Shown here piece after piece: positions 33,097 through 54,760 of a stretch of DNA of 64,000 nt. Source of the DNA: Beroe forskalii. Lineage: Eukaryota; Ctenophora; Nuda; Beroida; Beroidae. The notes beneath the pieces were generated by a model. It was not told the origin of the DNA and did not search any database. It saw nothing but the letters and a program-made list of their open reading frames with translations. Both the position numbers and the translations under genes were made by a program. The stretch is from contig WFMF01000054.1 of NCBI GenBank assembly GCA_011033025.1, positions 124,001 through 188,000 on the forward strand, in the 5' to 3' direction. Position 1 is the stretch's first letter. The number at the start of each line of letters is the position of its first letter.

Positions 33097-33186
33097 ATGG
33101 CATTGTTGAAAGTTCTCCTCATTTTGTCTGTCACTTTATGTGCCATCAGTATAAAAACGATTGAAGATCTTGAAGCAGAGAACAAG
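33097..33186 (+). CDS. Signal-peptide exon of tandem I29 inhibitor gene
   Basis: A 30-codon exon starting at ATG 33,097: MALLKVLLILSVTLCAIS, then KTIEDLEAENK, ending at donor GTATTA in phase 0. The first 18 residues are a classic secretory signal peptide: a basic residue, a leucine-rich core, and small residues at a likely cleavage site after C-A-I-S. All later first exons of modules also begin in phase 0, so this exon joins cleanly to module 1. The encoded protein is thus expected to be secreted or sent to the endolysosomal lumen. The start is chosen because it is the only ATG that gives a signal peptide and joins in frame. Confidence 0.7.
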
Positions 33187-33395
33187 GTATTAGTTTTTAG
33201 ATGAGAATTAACATTAATTACAATTTTCCTCAAATTTCAATGGTACCTGCACAGATTCCCAGCTGGATAGTCGTAGTATTACATAGCTATTCCAAATACT
33301 ATCAATCCTGACAATAACTATCAATACTGATTGATTTTTTGTTAATAAGCCAAGATAAGAATGTCTAAACCCTAACAAGAGATAAATTACTGAAG

Positions 33396-34329
33396 GTTAG
33401 CAAAATCGTGAGACTGCCATATGATGAAGAAACAGAAATTTTGACCATCAAAACGGAAGGAGACAGGCTTGGACAAGTTCAAACTTTGAAGCTTGAAGAT
33501 TGTATCAGTGAAGAGATGTACAGTAATGCAAAACTAAAAGAGTATGATGATGAAAGTAAATCATTTTGCATTTTTTTCATCCTAGCACTGAAACAGATAT
33601 AATTTATCACAAGTTGTACTCACTTTTATCATATAAATCATTGATCAATCAAAGATATTGCATATGCTTTTTCTGAATAGTCCGTAACAGATCACAGACA
33701 TACACAGTACACACAAACAGTTTGAAATTATCAATCATACAGTATAGATGATACCTACAATTTTTTGGTTTATTTCGAGATTTTTATCTTTTAAGAGGTG
33801 CGAACTGCATTAATTCTTTTGCAGGTGATGTTTTGTGTGGATTTTATGCATTCCAAGCCAACAAGAAAGAGGGCAATGGAGTGGGAAGTTACTCAAGTGC
33901 CGAGGAAAGTGCCATGAGACTTCAGTATTTCTCTGAAAGTGTAAAGCTGGTACAGGAAGTCAATTCCCAGTTTGACAAGGGAGAAATCACATGGACTGCT
34001 GGTAAGAATACTTCTGAAACACTAATCGGTTTTGTAATGTTTATTATTGTTTATTCAATTCCATAAATTATCTATAGGTATTTATTAAATCTATTTGAAT
34101 GATAAAAAAGATGCTATCAAATAACTTTTGCCACATAACAATTGACATGGAATGTTTTTCAGAGATCAACTTCTTTTCTGACATGTCTCCCGAAGAAAAA
34201 TACCCATACAGCCATGGTATCAGAATGCCAGGCGACTTGGTTGGTCTAGATGAAGAAACTGACAGGCCAAGGGTTATGGGAATGGGAATGGGAATGGGAT
34301 CTCCATCCATTTTCGGGGATCAAAAAGAG
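33396..34329 (+). CDS. I29 module 1 (exons A1, B1, C1), intact
   Basis: Three exons: A1 33,396-33,555, B1 33,825-34,001, C1 34,163-34,329, with intron phases 1 and 1 inside the module and phase 0 at its ends. A1 encodes an acidic linker with one Cys (KLEDCISEEMY). B1 encodes DVLCGFYAFQANKK and the helix with E-x3-R-x3-F and a final N (EESAMRLQYFSESV, then QEVN). C1 encodes INFFSDMSPEEKYPYSHG, matching the NxFxD core, and ends in a Met/Gly-rich tail. This is the inhibitor I29 fold that folds over and blocks papain-family cysteine proteases. No protease domain follows, so it is likely a stand-alone inhibitor. The acceptor of A1 (TTACTGAAG) has a poor pyrimidine tract. Confidence 0.7.
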
Positions 34330-34527
34330 GTAAAAGCAAAAGATTCGCTTATTAATTCATAAAATTGTATTTTCACTAATTTTAAACTCTTCCTCCATCG
34401 ATAGCTGCTTATTGCTTTTTTGGAAATTGTATCAAAATAACGGATCTGTATTTCACACTGAACAATGAAAATTAGCATAAATGATGATAAACACGTACTA
34501 CGTAGATAAAACCCGATTATTTTAAAG

Positions 34528-35621
34528 AAAGAAGACAAGGTCAGTAAGATTGTTAGGCTGCCAGAAGCTGAGGAAAGAGAAATTTTGACTATCAAAACTG
34601 AAGGAGACATGCTAGGACAAGTCCGGACTTTGAAACTTGAGGATTGTGTTGATGAAGAGATGTATGGCAATGAGAAACTGAAAGAGTACAAGGATGAAAG
34701 TATGTTTTTATTATTATTAGTTAGGGTGGTTCAGAGAATTGTACCTGGTTGTCTCCTGTGGATTCACGGAATTTATACACAACTAATGTAATATCGAGGT
34801 GTTCTAGTGCAATGAAATGCGATTAGCTGCCTTATTTCAAAATTATTTTGAATCTGATTCTGTTTTGATTGATTCAAATAATCTGTTGCCAAAGGGCTAT
34901 TATTTTCACATCTCTATCTTCAGGTGATGTTCTGTGCGGATTCTACGCATTCCAAGCCAACAAAAAGGCAGAATCTGGGGTAGGGGCATACTCAAGTGCT
35001 GAGGAAAGTGCCATGAGACTGAAGTATTTCTCTGAGAATGTGAAGAGCGTGCAGGAGACCAACGCTCTCTTTGACAAGGGAGAAATCACATGGACAGCAG
35101 GGATTCGGTGTTTTTTACCATTTTCAATTTAAGAATATTTTAGTCCGATTTATCCATTATTTAAAGGTTACAAATGGCAACATAATATGCACCATTATGT
35201 GTGTATCCATAGACAACGTAACGATATTAACGTATATTAACGGTTCCTTCTTATTGACAAGCAATTACATTTTGTAGTTGATATTTAGATAAGAGTTTAA
35301 GAGAACTTGAAATCACATTATGCGTGTATTCATAGACAACGTAACGTTATTAACGTATATTAACGGTTAATTCTCATTGACAAGCAATTACATTTTGTAA
35401 TCGATGTTAAGATAAGAGAATTTGAAATCACATTAAAACCTGCTGATTGAAAAGCTGCATTTTCAGGGATTAACTTCTTCGCCGACATGTCACCTGAAGA
35501 GAAGTACCCGTATAGTCACGGGTTAAGGTTCCCTGAAGATGATGATTGGGATGAGGAGTTGTGGGGACCCAGACTTGGGGCCTCTGCTGGGGGCGCAGTG
35601 CCAGAACCCAAGGAGAGAGAG
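34528..35621 (+). CDS. I29 module 2 (exons A2, B2, C2), donor of B2 lost
   Basis: A2 34,528-34,699, B2 34,924-35,100, C2 35,467-35,621. B2 has the full ERFNIN series: E-x3-R-x3-F-x2-N-x3-V-x3-N in EESAMRLKYFSENVKSVQ, then ETN. C2 starts GINFFADMSPEEKYPYSHG, an exact GxNxFxD. B2 is the same length (177 bp) as the other B exons, but the bases after it are GGATTC instead of a GT donor. Read-through stops at a TAA near 35,130, giving ...TAGIRCFLPFSI. The lost site is replaced by the first five bases of exon C2. If real, the longest intact product of the gene is the signal peptide, module 1, and module 2 without its C exon. Confidence 0.65.
35180..35430. repeat. Two ~134-bp direct repeats in a module 2 intron
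   Basis: ATAGACAACGTAACG, ATTAACGTATATTAACGGTT and GACAAGCAATTACATTTTGT recur in order about 134 bp apart, in the B2-C2 intron. Confidence 0.85.
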
Positions 35622-35828
35622 GTAAGGAGAGAGAGGGGGAGTGATTAGTTTTTAGTGGGATCTTAATTATCTTTGTTAAAGTTTGATAGGCTTCTAAAAT
35701 TGAAGAGAAAAACGTAAATTGAAGAGAAACGCTTAGACCTAGACTACAGATTATAACATTTGTGTGAAGAATATTCGACGGTTTATGAATATCCTTATTC
35801 GTGTTCCTAACATTTATTTCCTCACCAG

Positions 35829-36762
35829 AGCGAGGAAGTGAGGATGGGGAGGATTATGAGACTTCCCAAGGCTCTGGAAGATGAGATGGTGACCAGTGGA
35901 GAGGGAGCCTTCAGTCTCAAGGACTGTCTCGATGAGGAGATGTACAGCAACGATAATCTCAAGGAGTTCAGAACTCACCGGGACATGCTGTTATGAAAAT
36001 CGTCTTTTATTTTCTGAATTCCCTTAGTTAACGGGAAATATCGATTAATTTGAATATATTTTCTTATCTCGATTACTTTCTTCTTTTCTCTCCAGAAAAT
36101 GGCGGTAAATATATATTACCATGAAAACTGATACCCTCACCCCGCATATTTTCTATTCTGTTCGATATCAGCTATCCGGATATAACCAGAAGAAACCTTG
36201 GACCAATTTCAGGCGTTCCCAAGTTTTTGTAAATAATAGTTTCAAAATCTCACTCCCATCAGGGGACATGCTGTGTGGATTCTACGCATTCCAAGCCAAC
36301 AAACAAGAAGGAAATGGCATAGAGAAGTACGAGTCTGCTTTGGAAAGTGCCAAGAGACTCACGATATTTGCTCGGTCTGTAGCCGAGGTGCTCCGGATTA
36401 ACGCCAGATACGAGAAGGGAGAAATCTCATGGACTGCTGGTGTGTGAAATACACTGTTGAGGGGGAGAAGTTACAAAATTTTGAACCATTGATCCTTATC
36501 CTCACGTGCCTAAACCTCTGCATGTCTCCTAGGAATCAACTGATGCCTGGCGATTGGCGAATTATTCCATATTTGGTTATCACGTGATTTAACCGCTGTA
36601 TATCTCCTAGGAATCAATAAGTTCGCTGATATGACAGAAGAGGAGCTCTACCACCGGGCTGGTCACAAGGACGATGAGGACTATATGATACTTGGAGGAG
36701 GGGGAAGGGGCATGAAGCTGGGAGGAGGAAGAATGGTGGTTCCTCCTGAGGGAGATGAGGAG
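35829..36762 (+). CDS. I29 module 3 (exons A3, B3, C3), A3 ends in a stop
   Basis: A3 from 35,829, B3 36,263-36,439, C3 36,611-36,762. A3 encodes SEEVRMGRIMRLPKALEDEM and the Cys-bearing KDCLDEEMYS. At the position where the phase-1 donor is expected (after 35,979) it runs into GGGACATGCTGT, exactly the first 12 bases of exon B3, and then a stop (35,994-35,996). B3 encodes DMLCGFYAFQANKQ, which fits the family, and ESAKRLTIFARSV. C3 encodes GINKFADMTEEELYHRAG, the most cathepsin-propeptide-like of all copies. The donor after C3 is GTGTTA. A 15-bp copy of the C3 acceptor (TCTCCTAGGAATCAA) lies 80 bp upstream at 36,526. Confidence 0.55.
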
Positions 36763-36968
36763 GTGTTATAAAAGGGTTATAAAAGGGTCCGGGAAATTAG
36801 ACCAGGACCGAGAATCAGTTGCTTTTGAGGGGGCTCAGCTAATCTTATTTAGCCCTACCTACCTGATTCCTAACCTGACTCAAGTTCAATACAGGTCTGC
36901 AGTTATCCAAGATTTTATAAGCATTTAGCATATATAATGTTTGAGGCTTGAGCTAGGTCTCATTGCAG

Positions 36969-37852
36969 ACGGTGGAGGAGAAAGTTAAGAAGATAGTTCG
37001 ACTGAGTGAAGCTGAGGAAAGCGAGGTGATGAATGCTGATAACGATGATGATGAGGAGGCTTCCCACTTCAAGACCATTACCATTGAGGACTGTGTGGAT
37101 AAGAGTGTCTACAGCTACAAGAACCTCCCTCTATAGACTCCGGCGGTTAGTGTTTCTCTGATTTTGATATGAATGATATGGAAAACTGCTAAGTCCTCCT
37201 CAGAAATTGTGATATTTTATAGCTCGAACCGGCCGAAAGTTCAGAATTCATCCCAAATTACTTGCACTTCTTCCTTAAATTCTGTACTTTTTCTTTGTTC
37301 TTTGTCAGATCAACTTCTTAATAAGTTAATACCCTCAAAGCTTGAGAGTTTTACCTTGCCCTTACCGTCCCTTATCCTTCAACAGAGGAGTTCTTGTGTG
37401 CGTTCTACGCGTTCCAAGCCAACAAGAAGACGGGAGTAGGGGCGTACTCTGACTCAGAAGAAGCAGGGGAGCGTCTGGGATACTTCACTCAGTGTGTCAA
37501 GAACGTGCAGGAGAGAAATGCTCAGTACGAGCAGGGAGAGATCACATACACTTCAGGTAATTGCTTGTGTTAGAAGCTCTTGCGTGCAAAGCCATTGCGT
37601 GGCTCAAGCGTTACGTGCAAGGCTCTCAAATTGAGAGGGTTTTATTTTGAAACCTTTGCCAGGATTCCTTTCGCTTAATTCTTAAATAAATTCTAGTCAG
37701 TCTCGAAATTCTGTGATTGCAGACTTTCTTCTAACTCTCATCCCCTCTTTTCCGCTGTGAATTTCTTCTGTGACATGTCTGACGACGAAAAGTATCCCTA
37801 CTCTCACGGAATTAGACGTGGTAAAGTCGCCTTGATGGAACCGCCCGTCCAG
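36969..37852 (+). CDS. I29 module 4 (exons A4, B4, C4), stop in A4, TG acceptor at C4
   Basis: A4 from 36,969 encodes VRLSEAEESEVMNADNDDDE and IEDCVDKSVYSY but hits TAG at 37,134, before any phase-1 donor. B4 37,386-37,556 encodes EFLCAFYAFQANKKTGVG and the helix with E-x3-R-x3-F (EEAGERLGYFTQCV, then QERN). Its donor is GTAATT in phase 1. C4 fits 37,758-37,852: in phase it reads VNFFCDMSDDEKYPYSHG and ends at GTAAAA in phase 0. The two intron bases before C4 are TG, not AG, right after a strong pyrimidine tract (CATCCCCTCTTTTCCGC). Confidence 0.5.
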
Positions 37853-38397
37853 GTAAAAATATCCTGTATAACTCAAATTGTTCTAGAACTGTTCCAAAAT
37901 ATAACTCAAATTGTTCTAGAATCTTGAGAAATAAGATGTGCAATCATTCAAATAAATGTATTTTACTCTAGTTCAAAACAGTCCTTTGAATATTACACTT
38001 AATATTCTTCTACATCAAACCTTGTCCAACAGATATCGATGCTAAAATGACAGCGTATCCAGAGGTATTTAGTGTGAGCTTTTTTGAGCCTCCTCTTTCT
38101 GAGCCCTTGTTTTGAGCCTCCTTAATGATGCATTGCCGTGTCCATTTGAAATAACACTCTCCTTCGCTGTGAAGCACCTTTGCAGTTTTCTTAGCTGAGC
38201 GCTGTGGTTTTCATAATTCCTAATTCACTACTACATTTCCAATGGTCACTATTATTGTGTCACTACTATTTTCTAAAATCACATGTGCCAGCACTCAAGC
38301 ATTTTTGTTTTCTTGCGATATCAGACGTTATAGTTAATATACTTTCTCCACAAATCTCTCGTTTATTTCGAAGGTAACACCCACATGTTTGCTTCAG

Positions 38398-39028
38398 ACT
38401 GAGGAAGATAAAGTCGCCCGGATAGTTCGACTGAGTGAAGCTGAGGAAAGTGAGATAATGAATGCTGATAACGACGATGAGGAAGCTTCTCACTTCAAAA
38501 CCATTGTCATTGAGGACTGTGTGGATAAGAGTGTCTATGAGAACGAGAATCTAAAGCACATTAACACCAGTGGTAGGTTCTGATTAGTTTGATCCAACTA
38601 ACAAAATTCTTCTTTCAGAATATTGAATTTCGGCCATTAACGATTTACAATTTAAAACCCCTATTTTTGGGGTGAAAAGAACTTCTTTGTCCGAAAAGAC
38701 CAAAAGTATGGCTCAAGAGTGCTTTTCCCATTAACTACATTGCATAATGTGCTTTAGAACCAACTAATGACACAGTTTCACACAGAAATTTCCCCAAGTC
38801 CGAGCTTGTGTCGGAGTATTTCATGATTTTCTCACCATTACTCCCCGTCAGATGAGTACCTGTGTGCATTCTACGCATTCCAAGCCAACAAGATGCTGGG
38901 AGTAGGGGTGAAGGGGTACCAGGATTCTGAGGAGGCTGCTGAGAGGTTCTCTCTGTTCACCAAGTGTGTGGAGAGTGTACAGGAGACAAACAGGGAGTTT
39001 GAGGAGGGGAAGATCACTCACACTGCCG
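38398..39028 (+). CDS. I29 module 5, exons A5 and B5, intact
   Basis: A5 38,398-38,572 follows TTTGCTTCAG and ends at donor GTAGGT in phase 1. It is a close relative of A4 (ARIVRLSEAEESEIMNADND) but without the stop. B5 38,852-39,028 encodes DEYLCAFYAFQANKMLGVG and the ERFNIN-type helix EEAAERFSLFTKCVESVQ, ending ETNREFEEGKITHTA before donor GTGAGT. The expected third exon is not in the next kilobases; it lies at 52,739, on the far side of a 12.2-kb transposon nest. Confidence 0.65.
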
Positions 39029-40324
39029 GTGAGTCATGGGGAATTAGTGGAGATTCAGAGATTACCTAGAGAGTTTGAGATTAGATTCAATGATTCGATT
39101 GTAGATTCAATGATTTGACTGTAAGTGTAGATTCAGAAGTTCATAGGTGAGTGGAGATGATTTTTATTACATCTGGCCAGCCATAATTCAAGAGAACAGG
39201 AATTGAGATCAAATTGAAATGAACTGTTGCATGAAGTAATCGTATGATTTTTTCCGGCTCACTGAACCACAACCCATGACCTTACTCTTGTCTCATATCA
39301 AAGTTTTAAGACCTATGAAGTCATGACGGGTCATGAAGTCAGCTACCTTCTCACAATTCTTACTCTCTGAAATCACCTCATTCACACGAAAGATTATAAT
39401 GATACTTATAGGTATGCCGTATGCGCGTCATACATTTTTAATCGAATGTTCAACTGAAACCTAAAAGCCTTTCTACAGATGAGTAATTTGTAACGAAATT
39501 TTTCGCCGGTATAACTGGTTTCGTTAACAATGGTTATTGTGTTTTTGTAATGTGAAACTCTAGCCGATGTAGGAAGGACTGGTTTTAGGTATGGTGAGAA
39601 TATGCAAACTGTTGCTGATGGAAGATAACTTGAAATCATTGAACTGGAATATGAAAATTATTCCTGACATCATTACTGTGACGTTAGAATGAAACATGGG
39701 AATTTTGTTATCTTACAATTTTACTAACTTTTATGACGTTATTTTTAGGTCACTTTCAAATTTTGTAATAAGCGTGTGCGCAAAAACCAGGAAATACGTC
39801 AACGCCTTTTGGTCGCATCGGAATTATTATTCAAAACTTTTACAATTCATTCTTCCGAAATTAACTTAGTGCGTAAAACCAATATCCTGAAATTACATTT
39901 AATACTAAAACCTTCCCCATATGTTTGCAAAATATTGAGGGAGAAGGAAATAAAACCTGCAACTCATTTACTTATGGCTGCAGAAATTTGTAGTAAATTT
40001 TCAAATTTAATCATCGATAACTTATTAAAGTAATCTTTATTCAATACTGTTCACTGATCTGTATGGCTTCCTTCAGATTCGATTAACTAAACAAAACAGC
40101 TTTTCCATCGCATCATAATCATCAGATTTAAAGGAAGCCGTACATACAAACCGTGTTAAAAAATGGCTAATTATTTGGAAAAGGATAAAAGATGTCCATA
40201 ACACTCCCATATCACTCCCATATCACTCCCGGAAAATCTCAAATAAAAAGCCAGCTATAACCTTATAACGTTAACTGAGTCTGCTTCAAACTATCGGACA
40301 AAAATCTGCTATCACATCCCATAT
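39029..40324. other. Intron of module 5, left part
   Basis: AT-rich sequence without exon-like content. ORFs at 39,406-39,639 (minus) and 39,776-40,033 (plus) show no known motif. Confidence 0.5.
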
Positions 40325-41834
40325 TAGTAAGGGATGGATCCATAACCCCCAGTGAAGTAAATCCTCCCATAGATGTTAGAGCGGATTTTGGTAGTCCATA
40401 GGGTCAAGAACCACCAAAAAAAAGTTGTCCAAAAAATTCCTTGGGGAACCTTGATTTTTACCCCTTTTTTACCCACGCGTAGGGTAAAACTTTGATTGCC
40501 GATATCTCAGGTTCCTTTTGAGATACAAAGCTCAATAACCCCACTAAAATAATCGCAATGGTCGCATTAGGTCGGGCGGATCATGGTTTCAAGTCGCTAT
40601 CTTGCTCCGTTTTCGAGAAAATCGCCAAAAACCCCTTTTTCACCATACGCAAAGGGGCAAAAAATGGTTCAGATAAATATGGCCATACAGTGGGTAAATT
40701 GGCACTTATTCTGATTTGAAATGCATGTATCGGTTGTTCATAGACTAAACTTGTACCAGAAAAAAGTTGTCCAAGATATTCCATGAGGAACCCCCTTTTC
40801 TAACCCCTTTTTTTGAACCCGTGTAAGCCCAAATTTTGAATAAAGATATCTCAGCTTCCTTTTGAGATACAAAGCTCGATAACCACACTAAAATGTTCGC
40901 AATGATCACATTATGTCGGGCGGATCATGGTTCCAAGTCGCTATCTTGCTCCGTTTTCGAGATAATCGCCAAAAACCCCTTTTTCACCATACGCAAAGGG
41001 GCAAAAAATGGTTCAGGTAAATATGGCCATACTGTGGGTAAATTGGCACTTATTCTGATTTGAAATGCATGTATTGGTTGTTTATAGACTAGAGTTGTAC
41101 CAGAAAAAAGTTGTTAAAGATATTCCATGAGGAAAGGCACCCCCCCAGAGGCTCCCAGTGATTCAATATTTTCACTGGTCTACCACCAGTGAGGCAAGAA
41201 TTTCACGGGCCCAGCCCGGTGCACAGAGAGATCATAATGTCATGCGGATGTCATGTGACTGACCCGGGATTCAATATTTTCACTGGTCTACCACCAGTGA
41301 GGCAAGAATTTCACGGGCCCAGCCCGGTGCACAGAGAAATCAAAATGTCATGCGGATGTCACGTGACTGACCGGGATTCAATGTTTTCACTGGTCTACCA
41401 CCAGTGAGGCAAGAATTTCACGGGCCTAGCCTGGTGTAACTTTTATTCTGTTTCATATTACACTATGATATATCATTGTTTACACACATTATCAAATTAC
41501 TTCCGGTAATGTTGTATACACAGCCTTTCCCCACACACTTTACAGCTACATGTTACAGCGTACAAACTACACAATCTGCGTGTAGCAGTGTGTGAATCAT
41601 GGAGTACATTGTATCAGTGCAACAGTGATAGAGTAAAGAGCTCCTGGGACTGGGAACAAACACTGAAACAGTGAAAGGTTCTTGATTTCAAAAGCATGAA
41701 ATTTGAAAATGTAAATACATTTTTCAAAGCTATAGTCATAACTATGTGAATTACCTACATGTTACATACCATATTAAAATGTCCTTAGACCTATAGTCTG
41801 GTCAGTATATGCAGGGGAGAGGGATACACACTAC

Positions 41835-42060
41835 ACAGTGGTCTGCGTGTAGCAGTGGAGTACATTGTATCAGTGCAACAGTGATCGAGTAAAGAGCTCC
41901 TGGGACTGGGAACAAACACTGAAACAGTGAAAGGTTCTTGATTTCAAATTTGAAATTGAAATACATCTTACAAAGCTAGTAATAATTATGTGAATTACGT
42001 TTTACATATATAGCACATAGGTACCATATTAAAATGTCCCTAAACCTATAATAACAGTGT
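41835..42060. repeat. Second, diverged copy of the nested element's arm
   Basis: GTGTAGCAGTGGAGTACATT to CCATATTAAAATGTCCC repeats 41,580-41,790 in direct orientation with small deletions. Confidence 0.8.
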
Positions 42061-42119
42061 TATTGTGTCCTAACGACGTTGTTTTGTCGTAATGACGTTC
42101 ACTATGTCGTAACGATTGA

Positions 42120-42560
42120 CCTAACTGTTTCGCAACGACCTTACTCTCTCACATACTGTTTCGTATCGACCTTACTGTTTCGCAACGACGATACTGTGTC
42201 GTAACGGCATTACTGTGTCGTAACGGCATTACTGTGTCGTAACGGCATTACTGTGTCGTAACGGCATTACTGTGTCGTAACGGCATTACTGTGTCGTAAG
42301 GGCATTACTGTGTCGTAACGGCATTACTGTGTCGTAACGGCATTACTGTGTCGTAACGGCATTACTGTGTCGTAACGGCATTACTGTGTCGTAACGGCAT
42401 TACTGTGTCGTAACGGCATTACTGTGTCGTAACGGCATTACTGTGTCGTAACGGCATTACTGTGTCGTAACGGCATTACTGTGTCGTAACGGCATTACTG
42501 TGTCGTAATGACGATACTGCGCCTTAACAATGTTACTGCGCAGTAACTGTGTCGTAACGG
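42120..42560. repeat. 19-bp minisatellite ACTGTGTCGTAACGGCATT
   Basis: Seventeen or so near-perfect 19-bp units at 42,190-42,505, with decayed variants on both edges. The purity of the core suggests recent expansion. There are no spacers. Confidence 0.9.
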
Positions 42561-42754
42561 CGTTTCTGTGCCATTACTTCGCGTCGCTGTCGTAACAACG
42601 TTGCTGTCTTGTAAGTAATGGCATAATCCTGGCACCGAGTTATGAACGAAATACGTTCAATACTGATCTCAGAACAATAGTACTTGTCAATGTTGTCAGA
42701 CGTTGCCAGACGTTGTCTGTCGTAGGGGCGCGCGAAGGGGGCCAGGCAACATTT

Positions 42755-44440
42755 TACACACTTATAGTTCACACTAGCGCTTACACACTTACAAACTCGC
42801 GCTGACACACTCACGCTTATAAACTCACACACTTTACACACTCACGCTTACACACTTACACACTCACGCTTACACACTTGCACACTCACGCTTACACACT
42901 CACTTACACACTTACACTCGCGCTTACACACTTACACACTTTACTCACTTACACACTTGACATACTTACACACTTTACACACTTACACACGTTAAACATT
43001 TTACACACTTTACACATTTACACACTCACCCTTACACAATTACGCACTTACACACTCACACTTACACACTTTACACACTCACGCTTACATACTCGTACTT
43101 ACACAATTACACTCGCCCTTACACACTTACACACTTTACACACTTACACTCGCACTTATAACTAAAAAGTTTCACGCTTTACACACGCTTATTTGCTTAC
43201 ACACTCCCACTTACACTTTTAACACACTTGACACACTCACGCTTACACACTAACACACTCGTGCTTACACACTTACACACTCACGCTTACACACTTACAC
43301 ACTCGCACTTACACACTTACACTCGCGCTTACACACTTACACACTTTACTCACTTACACACTTGACACACTTACACACTTTACACACTCACACACTCACG
43401 CACTTACACTTACACACTTAACACACTTTACTCACTCACGTTTACACACTTACATACTCACGCTTGCACATTTACACACTCACGCTTACACACGTACGCA
43501 CTTAACGTGTGAAAGGTTAATGGAAATGAAATTCCAATTAAAACGAAATTTGCTTAATAAAGTTTGATTTCAAATATTGATTTATATAACATATGATTTT
43601 GTGATATGACGGCTAGCGTCAGTTAGCCAATATTTGAATTTTAAACCTGTGTAACCTGTGTAAAACCTGTGTAAACCTGTGTAAACCTGTGTAAACCTGT
43701 GTAAACCACCTACACACTCGCGCTTAAAAACTTACACACTCACGCTTATTCACTTACACACTCGCACTTACACACTTTACACACTCGCACTTACACACTT
43801 ACACACTTACACACTCACGCTTACACACTTACACACTCACGCTTACACACTTACACACTCACCCTTACACACTAACACATTCGCACTTACACACTTACAC
43901 ACTCGCGCTTACACACTTACACACTTTACACACTTACACACTCACGCTTATACACTTACGCACTTACACACACACTCGCGCTTAAAAGCTTACACAATTT
44001 ACACACTCACGCTTATTTTCTTACACACTCGCACTCACACACTTAACACACTTTACACACTCGCGCTTACACACTTTACACACTTACACACTCGCACTTA
44101 TACACTTACACACTCGCACTTACACACTCGCGCTTACACACTCACACACTTACACACTCGCACTTATACACTTACACAATCGCGCTTACACACTTTAAAC
44201 ACTCGCGCTTACACACTTGCACACTCGCACTTACACACTCGCGCTTACACACTCACGCTTACACAATCACGCTTACACACTTACACACTTTAGACACTCA
44301 CGCTTACACACTTACACACTGACGTTTACACACTTTACACACTCGCGCTTACACACTCACACACTTACACACTCGCACTTATACACTTACACAATCGCGC
44401 TTACACACTTTAAACACTCGCGCTTACACACTTGCACACT
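42755..44440. repeat. TTACACACTCACGC minisatellite arrays
   Basis: Two arrays (42,755-43,510 and 43,700-44,440) of 11- and 22-bp units such as CTTACACACTCACGCTTACA. Between them a unique AT-rich piece ends in about five copies of CCTGTGTAAA. The apparent threonine/leucine/histidine-rich ORFs are satellite artefacts. Confidence 0.9.
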
Positions 44441-44890: not shown

Positions 44891-44899
44891 ATATCTTGA

Positions 44900-45650
44900 C
44901 AGATGTATGTAGTTTGAACCCATGTTACTTGCCCAAAGGCAGTTTGGACCCACGTAACTTGCCTCACGTAGTCCGAACCCACGTTACTAGCCCACACGCA
45001 AGTCTAACCCACATAACTCACCCTGACGAAGTCCAAAACTACGTTATTCTAACTTGGAATTACTAGAATTGATATATTTCTTAATTTCTACAAATCGTCC
45101 ACGTGAACTCACGTGCTGGAATATAGCAACTAGATCTAATTTCACGCATTAGTCGTATTTGAACTCATTTCAACGTAACCAAGTCGAAAATCCCGTGTAA
45201 ATATCAATTTCTTCAAATCCCCTAATTTCTACAAAACGTCTGTGTGTAATCACGTGCATAAATATGGCAACCAGATCTGATTTCATGTGCATTAGTCGTA
45301 TTTAAAACTCATTTCAACATAATCAAGTCGAAAATCCTGCGTAAATATCAATTTCTTCAAATCCCCTAATTTCTACAAAACGTCCGCGTGAACTCACGTG
45401 CTTCACTAGTCCATCGTATATTTCCCCCGTTATTCGGACCCCGTTATTTGGACCCCCGTTATTCGGACCCCGGTTATTTGGAACCCCGTTATTCGGACCC
45501 CCATTATTCGGACCCCGTTATTCGGACCCCATTATTCGGACCCCTGTTATTCGGACCCCCGTTATTCGGACCCCCGTTATTCGGACCCCCGACTCGGACC
45601 CCCGTTATTCGGAACCCCGTTATTCGGACCCCCGTTATTCGGACCCACAT
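44900..45650. repeat. Three successive short tandem repeat blocks
   Basis: 44,900-45,050: about four ~34-bp units with ACCCACGTTACT. 45,065-45,400: two-and-a-half units of ~150 bp (CAAGTCGAAAATCC, TATCAATTTCTTCAAATCCC). 45,425-45,650: about 14 units of GTTATTCGGACCCCC. No gene. Confidence 0.85.
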
Positions 45651-45654
45651 AATC

Positions 45655-46300
45655 CGATGAAAACTCTATGAGTTGGAGATGTAAAAGTAGCGCAAAATAG
45701 CGTTCTATTACAAAATACGCTATTTTAGTGGTTTTACGCGATTTTGATGACGTCATCACAGCACACAAATAAGCTCAAACCAACTTCCCATATACTCATA
45801 TAGCCTATAAGACAATTCCGCCTTAGTACAACATACTTTGACCGGTCTCATCTCAAGATATGCTGCAGTTCGTGACATATCACTCGTTTAAGTTTTTCTC
45901 CTAAAATTTTGAAATTGATTTTTCACCGTACCTTAGAAAATCGCGTATATCTCGATGAAAAATCGAGATAGCCCAATGATCCATATGATTTTCTGAAAGC
46001 TCTTTAAATTTGCTAACAATTATTCCGAAAATCAGACCGCTATCTCCTTTCCTTCTTGGTGAAAAAATGCGCTCGAAATTAGCCTATTTTCGCTAAAAAG
46101 CAATAAAATTTCGCTAAGTTGATGACGTCATAATGACGTGAAAATGACGTCACCAGAACTTCTTATAGCCTATAACACTTTCTATCTTAGATCAACAAAA
46201 CCTGACCTCGATCATGGCTCTACCATTTCCGTTCTTGAGATCTCGGCTTTATAAATTGGGTCCCGAATTATCAGCTCTTATTATTATTATTATTATATAT
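45655..46300. other. Unassigned sequence with TGACGTCA words
   Basis: GATGACGTCA occurs at about 45,746 and again near 46,122 with TGACG variants after it. These CRE-like words may be chance in a repeat-rich stretch. No gene. Confidence 0.4.
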
Positions 46301-46304
46301 TATA

Positions 46305-46639
46305 TGACAAAAAACAATTGGAAATTGTGTAGGTTCCGCAGCGCCCTTGTAAATTTTTGCGATTAAAAGAGGTGATATGAACTTTAATCGCAGCGCTGGC
46401 GTGGTTTTGGGCTGTTTGGTGCAAGGAATATAGGCTAATCAATTCAGTACTCAGTAGTTTCATTCATGTATTAATAAATTCAACTGAATTTATACTATGA
46501 ATTGAAATATTCCTTGCAACTACAGCCCGCCACTAGTCACCACGCCAGCGCTGCGATTAAAGTTCATATCACCTCTTTTAATCGCAAAAATTTACAAGGG
46601 CGCTGCGGAACCTACACAATTTCCAATTGTTTTTTGTCA
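46305..46639. mobile_element. Hairpin MITE family B, copy 2
   Basis: A 335-bp hairpin with the same TGACAAAAAACAATTG ends and GTAGGTTCCGCAGCGC arms as 6,174-6,524; the loop differs. Confidence 0.85.
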
Positions 46640-46729
46640 TACCATATCATTCTTTTTTTGAACAAATTTTGCATTACCTATCTCATTCAACATGACTCAT
46701 GATAGTGATTCGAAATTTCTGATGCCGTT

Positions 46730-47830
46730 TGATCTAATTAGTCAATGCCATATTGCCATATTCCTGTGACGAGATATAAGCGATAATTGGTGTAATTGGC
46801 CAATTATCCAATTAAGCAATTTGCAATGAAAATTTTTACATAGCTCACTTCACGCAATCCATGCCAAAGTTTACGATGGCGTTGGAATGAAGTCGATACC
46901 ATATTCCTGAGACGAGATATAAGCGATGATTGGTTTAATTGACCAATTATCCAATTAAACGATTTGCAATGAAAATTTTTACATAGCTCACTTCACGCAA
47001 TCTATGCCAAAGTTTACGATGGCATTGGAATGAAGTCGATACTATCTTCCTGAGGCGAGATATAAGCGATAATTGGTTTAATTGGTCAATTATCCAATTA
47101 AGCGATTTGCAATGAAAATTTTTACATTGCTCACTTCACGCAATCTATGCCAAAGTTTACGATGGCGTTGGAATGAAGTCGATACCATCTTCCTGAAGCG
47201 AAATATAAGCGATAATTGGTTTAATTGGCCAATTATCCAATTAAGCGATTTGATATTAAAAATTACATATAGCCTACGACACGTGCCCTATGCCAAAGTT
47301 TCTGATACCGAAGGACTTACGACGATATCTGTTTTGGTTTTTTCGCAAAGTGATTTATAAAAACTGTGGTGGTTTCGAGAGACGACGATAACACTAATTT
47401 TCGTGATTTTAGGCATTTTTTGATAATTTTTCCTATGAAAATGGTGCGGTCGATTTCCATGAAATTTTCAGAGTTTATTAATCATGTAATGGACTACACC
47501 TGTGCAAATTTTCATGACTAACTTATGTTAATAAGAGCTCTAAATTGCCACTTGAAAACCGAACTTTTTTGAAATCGCTGTATTTTTATATAGTGGGCGC
47601 TGGCATTTCAAGAATAGAAAGACGGGATTGTTGCTACCTACTCTATCATTATAAAACATGTAGCCACGGTTCATCTTTGAGTCTGACCAGCAGTCCCGGC
47701 CCTTCGGGCCGGGACTGCTGATGCCCTCGGCCCTTCGGGCCAAGGGCATCTGCCCTTCGGGCAGATGCCCTCGTTCTTTTTCTTTTTCTTGCGCTGCGGG
47801 CGCTTGCCAGCGCCCTGATTATACACCCTG
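46730..47830. repeat. Repeat Y copy 2, inverted, with GC palindromes
   Basis: Four ~148-bp tandem units (46,730-47,270) with ATAAGCGATAATTGG, then a stretch matching 4,840-5,110 inverted, then stacked GC palindromes (GGCCCTTCGGGCC, GGGCAGATGCCC) at 47,688-47,775. Mirrors 4,675-6,130. Confidence 0.8.
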
Positions 47831-48016
47831 TGACACTGAAATGTCTAACTTATACCCCTGGCCAGTTTTTTTTATTCCGCGGGGGGTTACCTCCCTGGCC
47901 AGGGAGGGAATAGTACGTGGTGCAGTTATTTCTGTTCTAGGTAATTTGGCCAAACGCCTAAACAACTCACACAACTTTCAATTTATCCCTCTCCCCTGCA
48001 TATACTGACCAGACTA

Positions 48017-48221
48017 AAGGTCGGGTGGGCGACATTTCATCTCAGGACACTTCATCTCCCTGTCCTGACCCTAAACATAACCCTAACCCAAACCCTAACC
48101 CTGACCCTAACCCAAACCCTAACCCTGACCCTAACCCAGACCCTTACCTTTGCTTAAAGCTGACTTATTGCGAGATAAAGTGTCGTGAGATGAAGTGTCG
48201 TGAGATGAAATGTCCGTTCCC
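48017..48221. mobile_element. 205-bp insertion with telomere-like core
   Basis: Interrupts the right arm of the nested element; the left arm (near 41,795) gives the empty site CCTATAGTCTGG. CTA flanks both sides (48,014-48,016; 48,222-48,224). Subterminal inverted GACATTTCATCTCA words surround a degenerate CCCTAACCCAAACCCTAACC tract. Confidence 0.75.
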
Positions 48222-49101
48222 CTATAGGTCTAAGGACATTTTAATATGGTATGTAACATGTAATTCACATAGTTATGACTATAGCTTTGAAAAATGTATT
48301 TACATTTTCAAATTTCATGCTTTTGAAATCAAGAACCTTTCACTGTTTCAGTGTTTGTTCCCAGTCCCAGGAGCTCTTTACTCTATCACTGTTGCACTGA
48401 TACAATGTACTCCATGATTCACACACTGCTACACGCAGATTGTGTAGTTTGTACGCTGTAACATGTAGCTGTAAAGTGTGTGGGGGAAAGGCTGTGTATA
48501 CAACATTACCGGAAGTAATTTGATAATGTGTGTAAACAATGATATATCATAGTGTAATATGAAACAGAATAAAACTTACACCAGGCTAGGCCCGTGAAAT
48601 TCTTGCCTCACTGGTGGTAGACCAGTGAAAACATTGAATCCCGGGTCAGTCACGTGACATCCGCATGACATTTTGATTTCTCTGTGCACCGGGCTGGGCC
48701 CGTGAAATTCTTGCCTCACTGGTGGTAGATCAGTGAAAATATTGAATCCCGGGTCAGTCACATGACATCCGCATGACATTTTGATTTCTCTGTGCACCGG
48801 GCTGGGCCCGTGAAATTCTTGCCTCACTGGTGGTAGACCAGTGCAACTGTGGCATTTTTAAATCACTGGGAGCCTCTGGGGGGGTGCCTGAGGAACCCCC
48901 TTTTCTTACCCCTTTTTTGACCTCGCGTAAGCCCAAATATTGAATAAAGAGATCTCAGCTTCCTTTTGAGATAGAAAGCTCAATGACCACACTTAAATGT
49001 TCGCAATGGTCGCACCGCTTTCGAGGTTATCGCCAAAAAACCCTTTTTACCATATGCAAAGGGGAAAAATATGGTTCAGGTTAAAGTTGTCCGAGATATT
49101 C

Positions 49102-49663
49102 CGGGGGGTGATCAGGTACTAAGTGCATGACACAGGGTGGGTGGGTCCCGGCCGAGAGTGAAATACAGTTAGTCATCGTGTACTAAGTTGGGTGGTCCTT
49201 GAACTTTTTGTTCCTTAACAGTTAGTACAGTGTACTAAATTGGGTGGTCCTTCACATTTTTGTATCCAAAAAGTTAGTACAGTGTACTAAATTTGGTAGT
49301 CCTGGACTTTTTCTGACTCAAAAGTTGCTAAAGTGTAATGTAATACATTTGGTGGTCCTTTACATTTTTTTGAATAAAAAGTTGGTTTGTAAAATTTGAT
49401 TGATTGAAAACGCCCAGTCATGGGCGTCTTTTGAAATTCACTACCCATTGCACTTCTGAATTACCTATACTTCACTTTTAGTTCTCAAAAGGTACTCATT
49501 TTTCACTGATTTAATTTAATTAAGGGGTGGTCCCCAATTTTTAGCCCAAAAAACAGTTAGTATAATGTACCAAGTGTAGGGGTGGGTGGTCATGTTTCAA
49601 AATTTACAGAAAAATTCAGTTAGTACACCCTGTGTCATGCACTTAGTACCTGATCACCCCCCG
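49102..49663. mobile_element. 562-bp element with ATATT-core target duplication
   Basis: Ends CGGGGGGTGATCAGGTAC, extended inverted match through TGCATGACACAGGGTG. Flanked by GATATTC on both sides. Element 3 supplies the empty site near 57,930 (AATTCAATAAGGAACCCC, inverted). Interior holds about four ~50-bp repeats of GTTAGTACAGTGTACTAAAT. Confidence 0.8.
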
Positions 49664-49849
49664 GATATTCAATAAGGAACCCCTTTTCTTACCGCTTTTT
49701 TGAAACTGCATAAGCCTAGAGAGGGAATTGATTGAACTGAGATATCTCACCTCCCTTTGAAATAATAAGCTGAACAATCACATTAAAATGTTTCACAGGT
49801 AAATTAGTAGATAGAGGAGGTCGAACTAACTATCACAGTGTTTCTAAAT

Positions 49850-50660
49850 TTTCTTCTGAAACAGGTAACAAGTATAATAATGCAAGTAACAATAAAGAAT
49901 GCCACTAAAGCTCACACAGAAAGGTGTGTTTTCTTTGGTACCGCCTCTTTCTTTATCAGTTGCACCTCATTGACAGTTTTCCTCATGATGTCGTTCTCCA
50001 ATCTCCAGTGAGTGGTTTGCATGGTATATTTCCAACCAAGAGTATCTCATATCTTTGACATCGGAGTTTGGGATCATCTCTGACTTTATAGTAACATTTG
50101 GGGTTGGCGAGTGAAATACCTCGTGGTACTTGATAGGGAATTTCCCTTCAACTTCAATTATTGATAAGTCCATCAAAGGTATAACTGTATAAGAACAGAT
50201 CTATTGTTGGTGAACTTTGTACGATGACCAGTCAAGTTGACTGTGAAAACATCGTGGTTGGTAGTCAGCAAAAAGCCATCATCCATAATTAAGATCGACA
50301 CTTTCTTGCAATGTGACAATATTATTGGGCAGGAAACGTTTGATCCATGATTCAGACAAGAATGGGCAGTTGAGGCTAAATGACTATCTGGCATCTATGC
50401 AGCTGTCCGATTGCCATTCAACTTCGTCGAATGTTCCTTTGTTCCTACCCAGTATGTTGACATGTTGGTAGAATAAATTTCGAGCACGGCAAGCCATAAG
50501 AAGGAATGAAACCAATCTGATGAACCATATATAATGTTGGAATAACATCTTCCCTATAAGCAAGGGAATTTGAATCCGAAGTTATTGCCAGAATATTGGC
50601 TTCTGGTAGAAATGTCAGTTGTGGTATATGAATCCTTTTGCTCAGGTCAAACATTCAGAA
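49850..50660 (-). pseudogene. Envelope-like remnant inside element 2
   Basis: Three overlapping minus-strand fragments (50,445-50,654; 50,173-50,394; 49,967-50,176) closely match the plus-strand fragments in element 3. They include a Cys-rich piece (SCLNHGSNVSC), a membrane-proximal helical piece, and a hydrophobic segment encoded near 49,870-49,930. Stops and frame changes separate them. The general order (ectodomain, helix, membrane anchor, basic tail) suggests a retroelement envelope-type glycoprotein; this is inference and no family was confirmed. Confidence 0.35.
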
Positions 50661-52738
50661 GAGTCGTTATCAAATATGGTCTTATTGATAACATCAATGC
50701 TTTCCATCACATCTTGAACCAAATTTTTGCCGCCTGATACCTGTGGGTATGCTTGGCGGTTCAGCTAGTGCCAATATGTCGTGAATAAATGTTGTGTACC
50801 TCTCCATTTGTATTCATGTGTATTATTTCTACCATTTTACCCCTCTGAAACTGGCAAGAAAGAAGTCTCCCGCAATTGCATCCAAATTGGCTTAGGATAT
50901 TAAGTGACTAAAAAACAGGATGTTTGCCACTTAAGACGAATGTATTCATTGCACGAAATTTGGTCAATTGTAGATTGTGACTATATTTATAACTAATGAG
51001 GAAGATATCTCTAGGTATTCCCTCTCTAAGTCTCTATGCAGTGTCAAAAAGGGGTAAGAAAAGGGGTTTCCTCATGGAATATCTTGGACAACTATTTTGG
51101 TACAACTTCAGTCTATGAACAACCGATACATGCATTTCAAATCAGAATAAGTGCCAATTTACCTACAGTATGGCCATATTTACCTGAACCATTTTTTGCC
51201 CCTTTGAATATGGTGAAAAGGGGTTTTAAGATAATCTCGAAAAAACGGAGCAAGATAGCGACTTGGAACCATGATCCGCCCGACATTATATTGTGATCAT
51301 TGCGAACATTTTAGTGTGGTTATCGAGCTTTGTATCTCAAAAGGAAGCTGAGATCTCTTTATTCAAAATTTGGGCTTACGGGGTCAAAAAGGGGTTAGAA
51401 AAGGGGTTCCTATGGAATATCTTGGACAACTTTTTTCTGGTACAACTTTAGTCTATGAACAACCGATACAAACATTTCAAATCAGAATAAGTGCCAATTT
51501 ACCCACTGTATGGCCATATTTACCTGAACCATTTTTTGCCCCTTTGGGTATGGTGAAAAAGGGGTTTTTGGCGATTTTCTCGAAAACGGAGCAAGATAAG
51601 CGACTTGAAACCATGATCCGCCAGACCTAATGCGACCATTGCGATTATTTTAGTGGGGTTATTGAGCTTTGTATCTCAAAAGGAACCTGAGATATCTTTA
51701 TTCAAAATTTGGGCTTACACGGGGTCAAAAAAAGGGGTTAGAAAAGGGGTTCCTCATGGAATATCTTTAGTCTATGAACAACCGATACATACATTTCAAA
51801 TCAGAATAAGTGCCAATTTACCCACAGTATGGCCATATTTACCTGTACCATTTTTTGCCCCTTTGCGTATGGTGAAAAAGGGTTTTTTGGCGATTATCTC
51901 GAAAACGGAGCAAGATAGCGACTTGGAACCATGATCCGCCCGACATGGTGGATCATTGCGAACATTTTAGTGTGGTTATCGAGCTTTGTATCTCAAAGGA
52001 AGCTGAGATATCTTTATTCAAAATTTGGGCTTACGTGTCAAAAGGGGTTAGAAAAAGGGGTTCCTCATGGAATATCTTGGACAACTTTTTTCTGGTACAA
52101 GTTTAGTCTATGAACAACCGATACATGCATTTCAAATCAGAATAAGTGCCAATTTACCCACTGTATGGCCATAATTACCTGAACCATTTTTGCCCTTTGC
52201 GTATGTGGTGAAAAGGGGTTTTTGGCGATGTTCTCGAAAACGGAGCAAGATAGCGACTTGAAACCATGATCCGCCCGACCTAATGCGACCATTGCGATTA
52301 TTTTAGTGGGGTTAATGAGCTTTGTATCCCAAAAGGAACCTGAGATATCGGCAATCGAAGTTTTACCCTACGCGTGGGTAAAAAAGGGGTAAAAAATCAA
52401 GGTTCCCCAAGGAATTTTTTGGACAACTTTTTTTTGGTGGTTCTTGACCCTATGGACTACCAAAATCCGCTCTAACATCTATGGGAGGATTTACTTCACT
52501 GGGGGTTACAGCCTGGGGCAGATACATCCCTTACTATATTCTGATCTCCCATCTTAAGAAACTGTCATCCCATATATAACCCCCAAGAGAAGGGGCGAAC
52601 TGCAACGACCGAGTACCGACGTTTACCAAACACCTTGAAATTAAAAGATATTAAAAGACTTATTTGATATCATTATATTTGTTTTATTTCAGTGTTTTTC
52701 AGCAGATAATCAACTTCTGTAAATCAACTGTACTGCTG

Positions 52739-52854
52739 CGGTAAACTTCTTCTGCGACATGACGGCTAAAGAGAAGTATCCCTATTCCCACGGTATCAGG
52801 AGTGACATTGCTGAGGAGATGAGTGTCTTCGGGGTGTCTCCTGCCGACCTCAAG
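52739..52854 (+). CDS. I29 module 5, exon C5 beyond the transposon nest
   Basis: Reads VNFFCDMTAKEKYPYSHGIR and ends CAAG before donor GTACAC in phase 0. Entering in phase 1 it fits B5's donor at 39,029 exactly, which makes the intron 13.7 kb, nearly all of it foldback element 2. As in C4, the intron appears to end in TG (TACTGCTG) rather than AG. A decoy acceptor with exon-like sequence (TTTTTCAGCAGATAATCAAC) lies just upstream but leads to a stop. Confidence 0.5.
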
Positions 52855-52859
52855 GTACA

Positions 52860-53708
52860 CAAAGGAGGGAAATAATGGGTTATTAAAGTTGGGGGGGGGG
52901 ATAACGAGTTAAAAGAGGGGGGATAAAAGGCCTGATACTGGCGCGATACTGGCGTGATACTGGCGTGGTACTGGCACGCTACTGGCGTGATACTGGCCTC
53001 GACGGATCGCTCAATTTACCCATTTTCTTTAACTATCGTCAAGGTACGCCCAAGGGGGACTCATAGGGTTTGCTTGGAGGGGAAGCCCCTAAAAACCCCT
53101 TATATGAACCCCTAATATGAACAACAGGTTTAGAGGCAGCTTCCCAAACCTGCTGTACCGTGTAAAAGTAACTTGTTCTTATCATCCAATCCGGTTGGGG
53201 TGACAACATTTTTGACGAAATAAATTCATACCTTACGATGAAATATCGCATAAAATCGTTGCTTTATCAGCGGTTATCGGCTGTGCTGATATAACCGCTG
53301 ATATGTTGCAAGCGGTTTCCACAGATTTGAAAGTGCAAAGGTATTACCTTACCACAATTAATTATGATAAAGCAATATTCGGTAACAACCATTTATTAAG
53401 CATTTCATACGGCATACCGCATAAGTGCATAATTTTCTGCCCATTTAAGTCCTAATTTTCCTTGCTCTTTACTAATTTCCTTACCCTCTTGTTCCATGGC
53501 CAATTGCTACAAGAAAATAAAGTCTCCCATCCCTCTCACTCCATCCCTCTCAATACCTTAATTTCCTCACCGGGCCTGTTTTTACCTGGTTTTAGTAAAG
53601 TTTCACACTTCCGTGTCTATTTTACTCTCGTTTTCAACAAAGATTCACACCTTAAGTGTCTCTTACAATCATTCACAACTCTCGTCTCCCCTCAAGTCAC
53701 ACAAAGAG
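52860..53708. other. Intron C5-A6
   Basis: No exon-like content apart from the short minisatellite; a pyrimidine-rich stretch from 53,500 leads to exon A6. Confidence 0.5.
52925..53000. repeat. Short GATACTGGCGT minisatellite
   Basis: Six or so 11-bp units GATACTGGCGT within the C5-A6 intron. Confidence 0.8.
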
Positions 53709-53862
53709 AAGATGAGTAAGGTGGTGCGACTGGGAATGGAGGACGAGCAGGCTCTGCTCAGCTCTGATAAATCAGATGAAGACTTGGGCATGGTGGACTT
53801 GGAGAGCTGTGTGGACAGTGAGATCTACGATTACGATAACATTGAGGATATCGTTTTGAACC
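53709..53862 (+). CDS. I29 module 6, exon A6
   Basis: Starts KMSKVVRLGMEDEQALLS in phase 0 and keeps the family's Cys-bearing core (VDLESCVDSEIYDYDN). It ends at donor GTGAGT in phase 1, as every intact A exon does. Shorter than A5 because the acidic stretch is reduced. Confidence 0.6.
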
Positions 53863-54136
53863 GTGAGTTACTTTGTTGTTTACGTTTGTTTTAGCCTCTT
53901 TTGTTCTTTTTGCACAATTTTCATAGAAATGTGATATCATAAGATTTGTGTTTGTCTTTTTGCGTTAAAAATGGCTGTTAAACTTAGACATCACGAGTAT
54001 TTAGACTCAAAACGATGTTTCCGTTTTCATTGAATGCTGAGCTCAGTTTTAAAACATGTTTCAATCACATGCACTTGAATGTTATTTCAACTTTAATAAG
54101 TTCAATGATTTAAATGTCACCTTATCCTCTAATCAG

Positions 54137-54760
54137 GTGATTATGTGTGCGCGCACAACGCCTTCCAAGCTAACAAAGTGATTAGTAACCATGGTTATCC
54201 CTCACTAGGTGATTAGTAACCATGGTTACCCCTCACCAGGTAACAAAGTGATTAGTAGCCATGGTTACCTCTCACTAGGTGATTAGTAACCATGGTAAGC
54301 CCTCACTAGGTGATTAGTAACCATGGTAACCCTCACTAGGTGATTAGTAACCATGGTTACCCCTCACTAGGTGATTAGTAACCATGGTTGCCCCTCACTA
54401 GGTGATTAGTAACCATGGTTATCCTCACTAGGTGATTAGTAACCATGGTAACCCCTCACTAGGTGATTAGTAACCATGATAACCCCTCACTAGGTGATTA
54501 GTAACCATGGTTACCCCTCACCAGGTAACAAGGTGATTAGTAACCATGGTTACCCCTCACTAGGTGATTAGTAACCATGGTAACCCTCACTAGGTGATTA
54601 GTAACCATGGTAACCCTCACTAGGTGACTACGTGTGCGCGTACTACGCCTTCCAAGCTAACAAGGTGATGGGGACAGGACTGGGTCAGTACAAGGGAGCT
54701 AAGGAAAGCAAGAAGAGGTATCATCTGTTCAGTGACTGTGTGTTTTTGAAATTTCGGATT
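54137..54760 (+). pseudogene. I29 module 6, exon B6 disrupted by a minisatellite and truncated
   Basis: Acceptor CTAATCAG at 54,136 opens DYVCAHNAFQANKVISN, then the reading frame enters a 31-bp minisatellite. A second exon start at 54,624 (after CACTAG) reads DYVCAYYAFQANKVMGTG, then KESKKRYHLFSDCV. After that the sequence no longer matches the family; the end of the ERFNIN helix and the C exon are missing. The module is therefore split at its 5' end and cut at its 3' end, and no further module is seen. Confidence 0.6.
54178..54623. repeat. 31-bp minisatellite at a splice acceptor
   Basis: About 14 units of GTGATTAGTAACCATGG plus TTACCCCTCACTAG. Each unit keeps a pyrimidine-rich CACTAG followed by GTGATTA, like the acceptor and first bases of exon B6, so the array appears to have grown from the exon boundary. 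Use of any unit as acceptor would put TAG in frame. Confidence 0.85.

Follow-up and report, generated by a model that had tools for sequence, protein, structure and literature searches.

What kind of protein is made by a gene that repeats, several times over, the pro-region fold of papain-like cathepsins? The question is raised by a locus of the ctenophore Beroe forskalii, which lies in a stretch of 64,000 nucleotides (assembly GCA_011033025.1, contig WFMF01000054.1, positions 124,001 to 188,000, forward strand). This whole stretch is called the window here, and coordinates are those of the 64-kb window. The locus is probably the gene for a secreted poly-I29 protein, a chain of Inhibitor_I29 units that would most likely act as a multi-headed inhibitor of papain-type (C1A) cysteine proteases. 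Such an inhibitor had been proposed in a first-pass annotation made from the letters of the DNA, and it remains the best reading given the I29 matches of the modules and the failure to find a peptidase C1 domain in 114 kb.

The gene occupies 33097-54742 on the plus strand and contains a signal-peptide exon (SP), six A exons, six B exons and five C exons. The exon pieces were first chosen by eye from open reading frames, and hidden Markov models (HMMs) of each exon type were searched against the six frames of 114 kb, that is, the window with 20 kb before it and 30 kb after it. The matches, all on the plus strand and spanning 33393-54742, gave the order A-B-C five times and then A-B, with a fragment of B6 additional to the six B exons. 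As a check, each exon was sought in the 114 kb with an HMM built only from its sister exons, and all 17 held-out exons were recovered. The A exons were found at E 9.6e-8 or better, the B exons at E 1.1e-15 or better, and C1 to C5 at E 9.8e-16, 1.6e-17, 5.1e-3, 1.9e-16 and 5.2e-15; 16 of the 17 thus reached E 9.6e-8 or better, the weak C3 being the exception. The top unrelated A or C match in the same sequence had E 0.24 or worse, and the top B match outside the list (about 1e-5) is by position the B6 fragment at 54136. Recovery of the cassette exceeds chance by far and confirms the signal-peptide exon and repeated A-B-C cassette of the first-pass annotation, which had counted at least six modules; five are complete, and the sixth is truncated, consisting of A6 and an incomplete B6 of 40 residues with no C exon. 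The exon models found no further module and no B6 tail up to 30 kb past the window, and a weak B-like match at 88577 was rejected as noise. In searches of the whole genome (216 Mb in 1134 contigs) no other copy of A or B was present among the candidates scored. The features are as follows, with P0003 to P0006 denoting relatives that are described below.

33097..33186, plus strand: exon SP, predicted signal peptide and linker (MALLKVLLILSVTLCAIS...ENK), exit phase 0 (hydrophobic N-terminus by eye; similar N-terminus in P0004)
33396..33555, plus strand: exon A1, phase 0 in and 1 out, conserved Cys; AG acceptor with a poor pyrimidine tract (HMM; joins match P0004)
33825..34001, plus strand: exon B1, 177 bp, ERFNIN-type half of I29 module 1 (HMM, Pfam)
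34163..34329, plus strand: exon C1, NxFxD half of I29 module 1, and linker (HMM, Pfam)
34528..34699, plus strand: exon A2 (HMM)
34924..35100, plus strand: exon B2; expected donor GG, in-phase GT at 35110-35111, with which the exon is 186 bp (HMM)
35467..35621, plus strand: exon C2; counterpart P0006 (HMM)
35829..35978, plus strand: exon A3, 3' end undefined; in-phase GT only within the conserved part (last base 35895, 35913 or 35925), one in-phase GC at 35946 (HMM)
36263..36439, plus strand: exon B3, 177 bp; probable counterpart P0003 (HMM)
36611..36762, plus strand: exon C3 (HMM)
36969..37127, plus strand: exon A4; the frame meets a stop ahead of any donor where one is expected, and the only in-phase GTs lie before that (last base 37092 or 37104)
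37386..37556, plus strand: exon B4, 171 bp; extra Cys at the ERFNIN-Asn position (HMM)
37749..37852, plus strand: exon C4; AG missing at the expected place, with an in-phase AG 48 bp further upstream (first base 37701); NFFCDM includes a Cys (HMM)
38398..38572, plus strand: exon A5 (HMM)
38852..39028, plus strand: exon B5, 177 bp; extra Cys at the ERFNIN-Asn position (HMM)
52733..52854, plus strand: exon C5; preceding intron about 13.7 kb; 52400-52738 contains no AG that is both in phase and stop-free; NFFCDM includes a Cys (HMM)
53697..53862, plus strand: exon A6 (HMM)
54133..54186, plus strand: B6a, which repeats the opening residues of exon B6 and heads a 31-bp minisatellite (HMM)
54624..54742, plus strand: exon B6; homology stops after ...YHLFSDCV; counterpart P0005 continues through the rest of B (HMM)

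The fixed phases that had been reported for the cassette (0 in, 1, 1, 0 out) held in every exon with both ends defined, with A running from phase 0 to 1, B from 1 to 1 and C from 1 to 0. Of the 34 splice sites between the signal-peptide exon and B6, counting the SP donor and the B6 acceptor, 29 have a canonical, in-phase signal where one is expected; for comparison, one donor and one acceptor of the nearby XRN2 exons were read by eye as GT and AG. Exons SP to C2 form one open frame with canonical splicing if B2 is taken as 186 bp. The length of 177 bp claimed for the B exons of modules 1, 2, 3 and 5 was found in modules 1, 3 and 5, and in B2 only with a GG donor. At the far end of the array the start of B6 is present twice in 54133-54627, with about 14 copies of the 31-bp minisatellite between the two; the repeat unit includes the acceptor-like sequence of B6 itself (TCACTAGGTGATTA), and the homology of B6 is lost at 54742, beside this minisatellite. 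The intron between B5 and C5 (39029-52732) is rich in tandem repeats.

To identify the modules, we compared the joined B and C exons with Pfam Inhibitor_I29 (PF08246), which has a curated cut-off of 24.4 bits. With the split codons filled, modules 1-5 scored 36.4, 39.3 (29.9 with the GT donor), 41.1, 30.6 and 25.5 bits, all above the cut-off, with non-canonical acceptors assumed for modules 4 and 5. In neither of two Pfam runs did another family exceed its cut-off, the nearest by E-value being BNR_3 in module 3 (17.3 against 27 bits), and exon A is consequently without a Pfam family. The ERFNIN-type spacing attributed to the B exons and the NxFxD motif attributed to the C exons were both borne out. 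The E, R, F, V and last N of the helix (E-x3-R-x3-F-x2-N-x3-I/V-x3-N) are invariant in all five full B exons and NxFxD is present in 5/5 C exons, whereas at the middle Asn of the helix modules 1-6 read S, N, S, C, C and C, and module 2 alone retains the Asn. The B|C intron interrupts the codon for the Gly of GxNxFxD; modules 1-5 have E, G, G, A and A there, and Gly is thus kept in two of five, on the assumption of the GG donor for module 2 and of non-canonical acceptors for modules 4 and 5.

Comparison with known structures pointed to the same family. The top match of module 2 in the PDB is crammer (2L95; E 2.1e-7), followed by cathepsin L-like proenzymes; with a profile of the modules, the procathepsins L 3QJ3 and 3QT4 are closest and crammer comes after them. 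Residues of crammer were mapped through the alignment of module 2 with 2L95 and the numbering used in the excerpted text of PMC3551606, the PDB chain number being one higher as judged from the letters. In all five modules, Glu, Arg, Phe and Glu stand at the places of crammer E24, R28, Y32 and E67. Gly73 is Gly in all five as well, and its change to Ala nearly abolishes inhibition by crammer, according to the portion of PMC4089206 consulted. F16 of helix 1 probably has no counterpart, judging by eye from the spacing. Most of the key crammer residues are kept in modules 1-3, which would probably be the better inhibitors.

The prediction that no catalytic domain follows agrees with our searches. 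Searches with tblastn and an HMM of four cathepsins from the same genome detected no peptidase C1 in the 114 kb, about 39 kb of which lies beyond B6; a hidden C1 domain nearby was rejected, the matches returned being I29-like or noise. The only C1 among the contig matches listed is at 624195-624836, on the other strand and about 445 kb beyond B6. Downstream of the array there is an open frame of 807 residues, followed by XRN2 exons (XRN_N, E 1.8e-103) and an exon of a histone deacetylase; the 807-residue frame (L012:3276-5696) has no Pfam match.

Papain-type proteases are abundant in this genome. We counted at least 153 peptidase C1, at least 53 I29 and at least 2 cystatin matches (one cystatin with an internal stop), all of them exon-wise lower bounds from which intron-split cystatins would escape; the whole-genome C1 search scored 150 of 303 candidates. 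Many of the C1 matches (e.g. L001-L008 and L032-L048) lie in single open frames of 300-1200 residues, whereas the window gene consists of many small exons. Three loci (L049, L050 and L051) encode C1-like proteins with the active-site stretch QIKGTCWAH, and their I29 unit is the closest to the modules (E 2e-10 to 4e-10) within the small set of 29 own-genome open frames listed. An intron place common to the modules and the cathepsins of this genome was considered and rejected, as it was not shared in the one exon checked, where the L005 exon ends after the GNFD-type motif and not before it.

The single conserved Cys reported for each A and each B exon is present in 6/6 A and 6/6 B exons of the window, and also in the A segment of P0004, in the B6 fragment and in all five relatives covering that part of B. 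A second pair, which did not figure in the first-pass annotation, has one member at the middle Asn position of ERFNIN and the other at the x of FxD, where modules 1-5 read S, A, A, C and C. Both of its cysteines occur in modules 4 and 5 and neither in modules 1-3, and B6 has the helix half. Outside the window, the Cys at the ERFNIN place is found in P0002, which resembles modules 4 and 5, and in P0005, which resembles module 6; P0001 and P0003 lack it. In the I29 loci of the same genome, Cys at either place was seen by eye in none of the 26 that could be read out of 30 (L028, L029, L040 and L043 were not readable, and some of the rest, such as L006/L007, are near copies). This pattern suggests two disulfides, one between A and B in all modules and one between B and C in modules 4 and 5. 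AlphaFold models of two relatives are of low confidence (predicted local distance difference test, pLDDT, 58.5 for P0001, which has two helices, and 48.8 for P0004).

The modules are under constraint, as most of the differences between them concern the third base of the codon. In the 134 codons compared between modules 1 and 2 there are 14 differences at the first position, 15 at the second and 62 at the third (nonsynonymous divergence, dN, 0.109; synonymous divergence, dS, 2.46, which is saturated), and for modules 4 and 5 the counts are 24, 17 and 49 in 127 codons (dN 0.163, dS 1.20); dS was not computable for the short C pairs alone. Counterparts of the exons also exist elsewhere. A profile of the six modules gave relatives, P0001-P0006, in 6 of 2412 candidates at E 0.1, and was the only search to do so. 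Each relative covers one exon, except P0004, which covers parts of three. P0005 is 85% identical to B6 over 40 residues and 37-41% to the other B exons, and P0006 matches C2 including its linker at 64% (E 3e-19), far above the other C exons. P0003 is best with B3 (60%, E 9e-26), B1 being slightly lower (55%, E 8e-25); P0002 is B4- or B5-like and P0001 is B1- or B2-like. Some other organism therefore has counterparts of particular modules, most clearly of B6 and C2.

The layout of P0004 is as the gene model predicts: a signal peptide and a linker precede an A segment, after which B begins. At the A|B join it reads KEES-DYLCGFYAF, which aligns without a gap with the spliced A1|B1 sequence DDES-DVLCGFYAF, and its linker, although longer than that of the window gene, likewise ends in NK before the A motif. 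Since a protein does not reveal intron places, P0004 supports the splice sites without proving them; joining in a transcript-derived protein was observed for SP-A-B only, and the later cassettes of the window keep the phases. The last nine residues of P0004 do not fit, which may reflect an assembly fault. We take its source label, 'merc', to stand for a catalogue from marine eukaryote metatranscriptomes.

From these observations a mode of action can be proposed. The hydrophobic N-terminus, judged by eye, points to secretion. Each module would begin with an acidic A segment containing a single Cys. Exons B and C would then encode the I29 unit, in which helix 1 and the ERFNIN-type helix 2 lead to the NxFxD strand and to a C-terminal segment, the part that in procathepsins lies in the active-site cleft. 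Each I29 unit would fold on a mature C1A protease, occupying the cleft as the cognate propeptide does. The targets would probably be the large C1 family of the organism or foreign proteases; its own enzymes are plausible targets.

Inhibitors of this general type are already known. Salarin, from Atlantic salmon (MEROPS family I29), has a four-domain make-up. By description, not by sequence, it is like the window gene as interpreted here, a cysteine-protease inhibitor of I29 copies. The excerpted sources state that I29 inhibitors exist 'in one or more copies', salarin among them (PMC4074843), and with 'single or multiple copies' (PMC11335235), and in those same excerpts an A segment with a Cys, an A-B-C cassette and a module-specific second Cys pair go unmentioned for salarin. 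Crammer of Drosophila, CTLA-2 of mouse and BCPI of silkworm are free-standing I29 inhibitors, as the window modules would be. Crammer shares E24-R28-E67 and Gly73 with the modules; however, it is a single module of about 80 residues with no A segment, whereas the window gene has several modules, each with an A segment. Cysteines are also placed differently, C75 of CTLA-2alpha and C72 of crammer being near the enzyme-contacting C-terminal part (PMC4089206, in the portion consulted) and those of the window modules elsewhere. Pro-regions of cathepsin L-like enzymes (3QJ3, 3QT4, 1CS8) align with the modules in the ERFNIN-type helix and NxFxD, and 3QJ3 also in the Tyr-x-His-Gly segment after it, but they precede a C1 domain and none was found after the modules in the 114 kb. 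For the arthropod I29 proteins that lack C1A (D. melanogaster, N. vitripennis, T. castaneum and T. urticae), compared by description, the partial accounts mention no A segment. In the open-access literature, partly seen and covering salarin through secondary mentions only, we found no description of an A segment with a Cys or of a three-exon cassette. The additions made by this locus to a known type are best read as the Cys-bearing acidic A segment of each I29 unit and the extra Cys pair of modules 4 and 5.

Several results weigh against a multi-headed inhibitor. Five of the 34 splice sites (B2 donor, A3 donor, A4 donor, C4 acceptor and C5 acceptor) have no canonical in-phase signal at the expected place, and modules 4 and 5 exceed the I29 cut-off only with assumed non-canonical acceptors. 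When A+B+C were joined without the split codons and with a few extra edge residues, modules 1-5 scored 31.3, 32.2, 33.7, 23.6 and 19.9 bits, the last two below the cut-off, and the truncated module 6 had no Inhibitor_I29 match in that run. Crammer W53 corresponds to Trp in modules 1-3, to Tyr in module 4 and to His in module 5, and crammer R29 is kept in none of the five (Leu or Phe). Two protein searches with single joined sequences gave nothing at E 1 among 7995 and 170 candidates. Other explanations must be weighed as well, some of them compatible with each other or with the inhibitor. That the array was once a working poly-I29 inhibitor in the lineage and has since decayed in this genome, in part or completely, to a pseudogene is unlikely but has to be taken seriously, given the odd splice sites, the stop before the donor of A4, the loss of B6 at the minisatellite and the repeats filling some 13.7 kb of one intron; yet the bodies of the exons keep an open frame, third-position bias is strong in module pairs 1/2 and 4/5, 29 of the 34 sites are canonical, and an assembly error or unusual splicing could account for the others. 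Recruitment of the I29 units to a non-inhibitory role, such as that of a cathepsin chaperone, of a stabiliser or of a secreted structural protein, seems improbable. It is consistent with CTLA-2alpha, which also stabilises its enzyme (PMC4089206, in part), and with the absence from modules 4 and 5 of the Trp thought to contact the enzyme in crammer (PMC3551606, in part), but modules 1-3 retain most of the residues that crammer needs for inhibition.

The product might alternatively be a polyprotein precursor, from which a proprotein convertase frees single-module I29 inhibitors by cutting at the basic motif that opens every A segment. We regard this as rather unlikely. The motif [KR]-[IV]-[VM]-R-L opens A in all six window modules (KIVRL, KIVRL, RIMRL, KIVRL, RIVRL, KVVRL) and in P0004 (KVMRL), its Arg and Leu belong to the only five invariant residues of A, and it lies just inside the phase-0 module boundary, where a cut in module 1 would drop the linker after the signal peptide. 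However, P2 is not basic here and P1' is Leu, so this would not be a strong convertase site, and the motif could be structural instead. It is scarcely credible that the exons belong to an ordinary procathepsin with its catalytic exons missed. An I29 domain usually precedes a C1 domain and only about half of the C1 candidates in the genome were scored, but the 114 kb contain no C1 that our searches could find, the one listed on the contig is far away and on the other strand, and six repeated units have no place in such an enzyme.

Returning to the multi-headed inhibitor, a bolder version of it can be put forward, which we consider quite doubtful. The locus would encode a new kind of poly-I29 protein, with every unit pinned by a disulfide from the acidic A segment to helix 1, and in modules 4 and 5 also from helix 2 to the NxFxD strand. 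The plug would be pre-folded before it meets a protease, and the chain would be cut at [KR]-[IV]-[VM]-R into distinct single inhibitors. Such a disulfide-pinned plug would be unlike crammer, which is a molten globule at acid pH and becomes ordered on binding (PMC3551606, in the excerpted text). Procathepsins usually have a single plug, joined to the enzyme itself. A secreted chain of at least five plugs, each with added cysteines, under constraint and in a genome with over 150 papain-type matches, would if real be a natural set of cathepsin inhibitors differing in specificity, and would offer a direct way to ask whether disulfides make a contact-folding plug pre-folded.

Some further observations concern the surroundings of the gene. 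Directly 5' of the signal-peptide ATG there is an AG acceptor-like site (ttcacaggcag, 33083-33097), pointing to a possible intron in the 5' untranslated region or a trans-splice site. About 4 kb upstream of the signal-peptide exon, the stretch 29034-29075 (KLSKIMRL..., E 0.3) resembles the head of an A segment; the exon models found no other cassette part after it, and it may be due to chance or be a relic of a further cassette. Rfam gave nothing in the window at the gathering threshold. A 21-bp tandem repeat of about 37 copies at 30350-31150 is open in several frames on both strands, and 13833-15655 contains reverse transcriptase and RNase H stretches of an element like a long interspersed nuclear element (LINE). 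Stretches from about 49 to 52.5 kb recur inverted at about 55.4-58 kb, with the same open frames on opposite strands.

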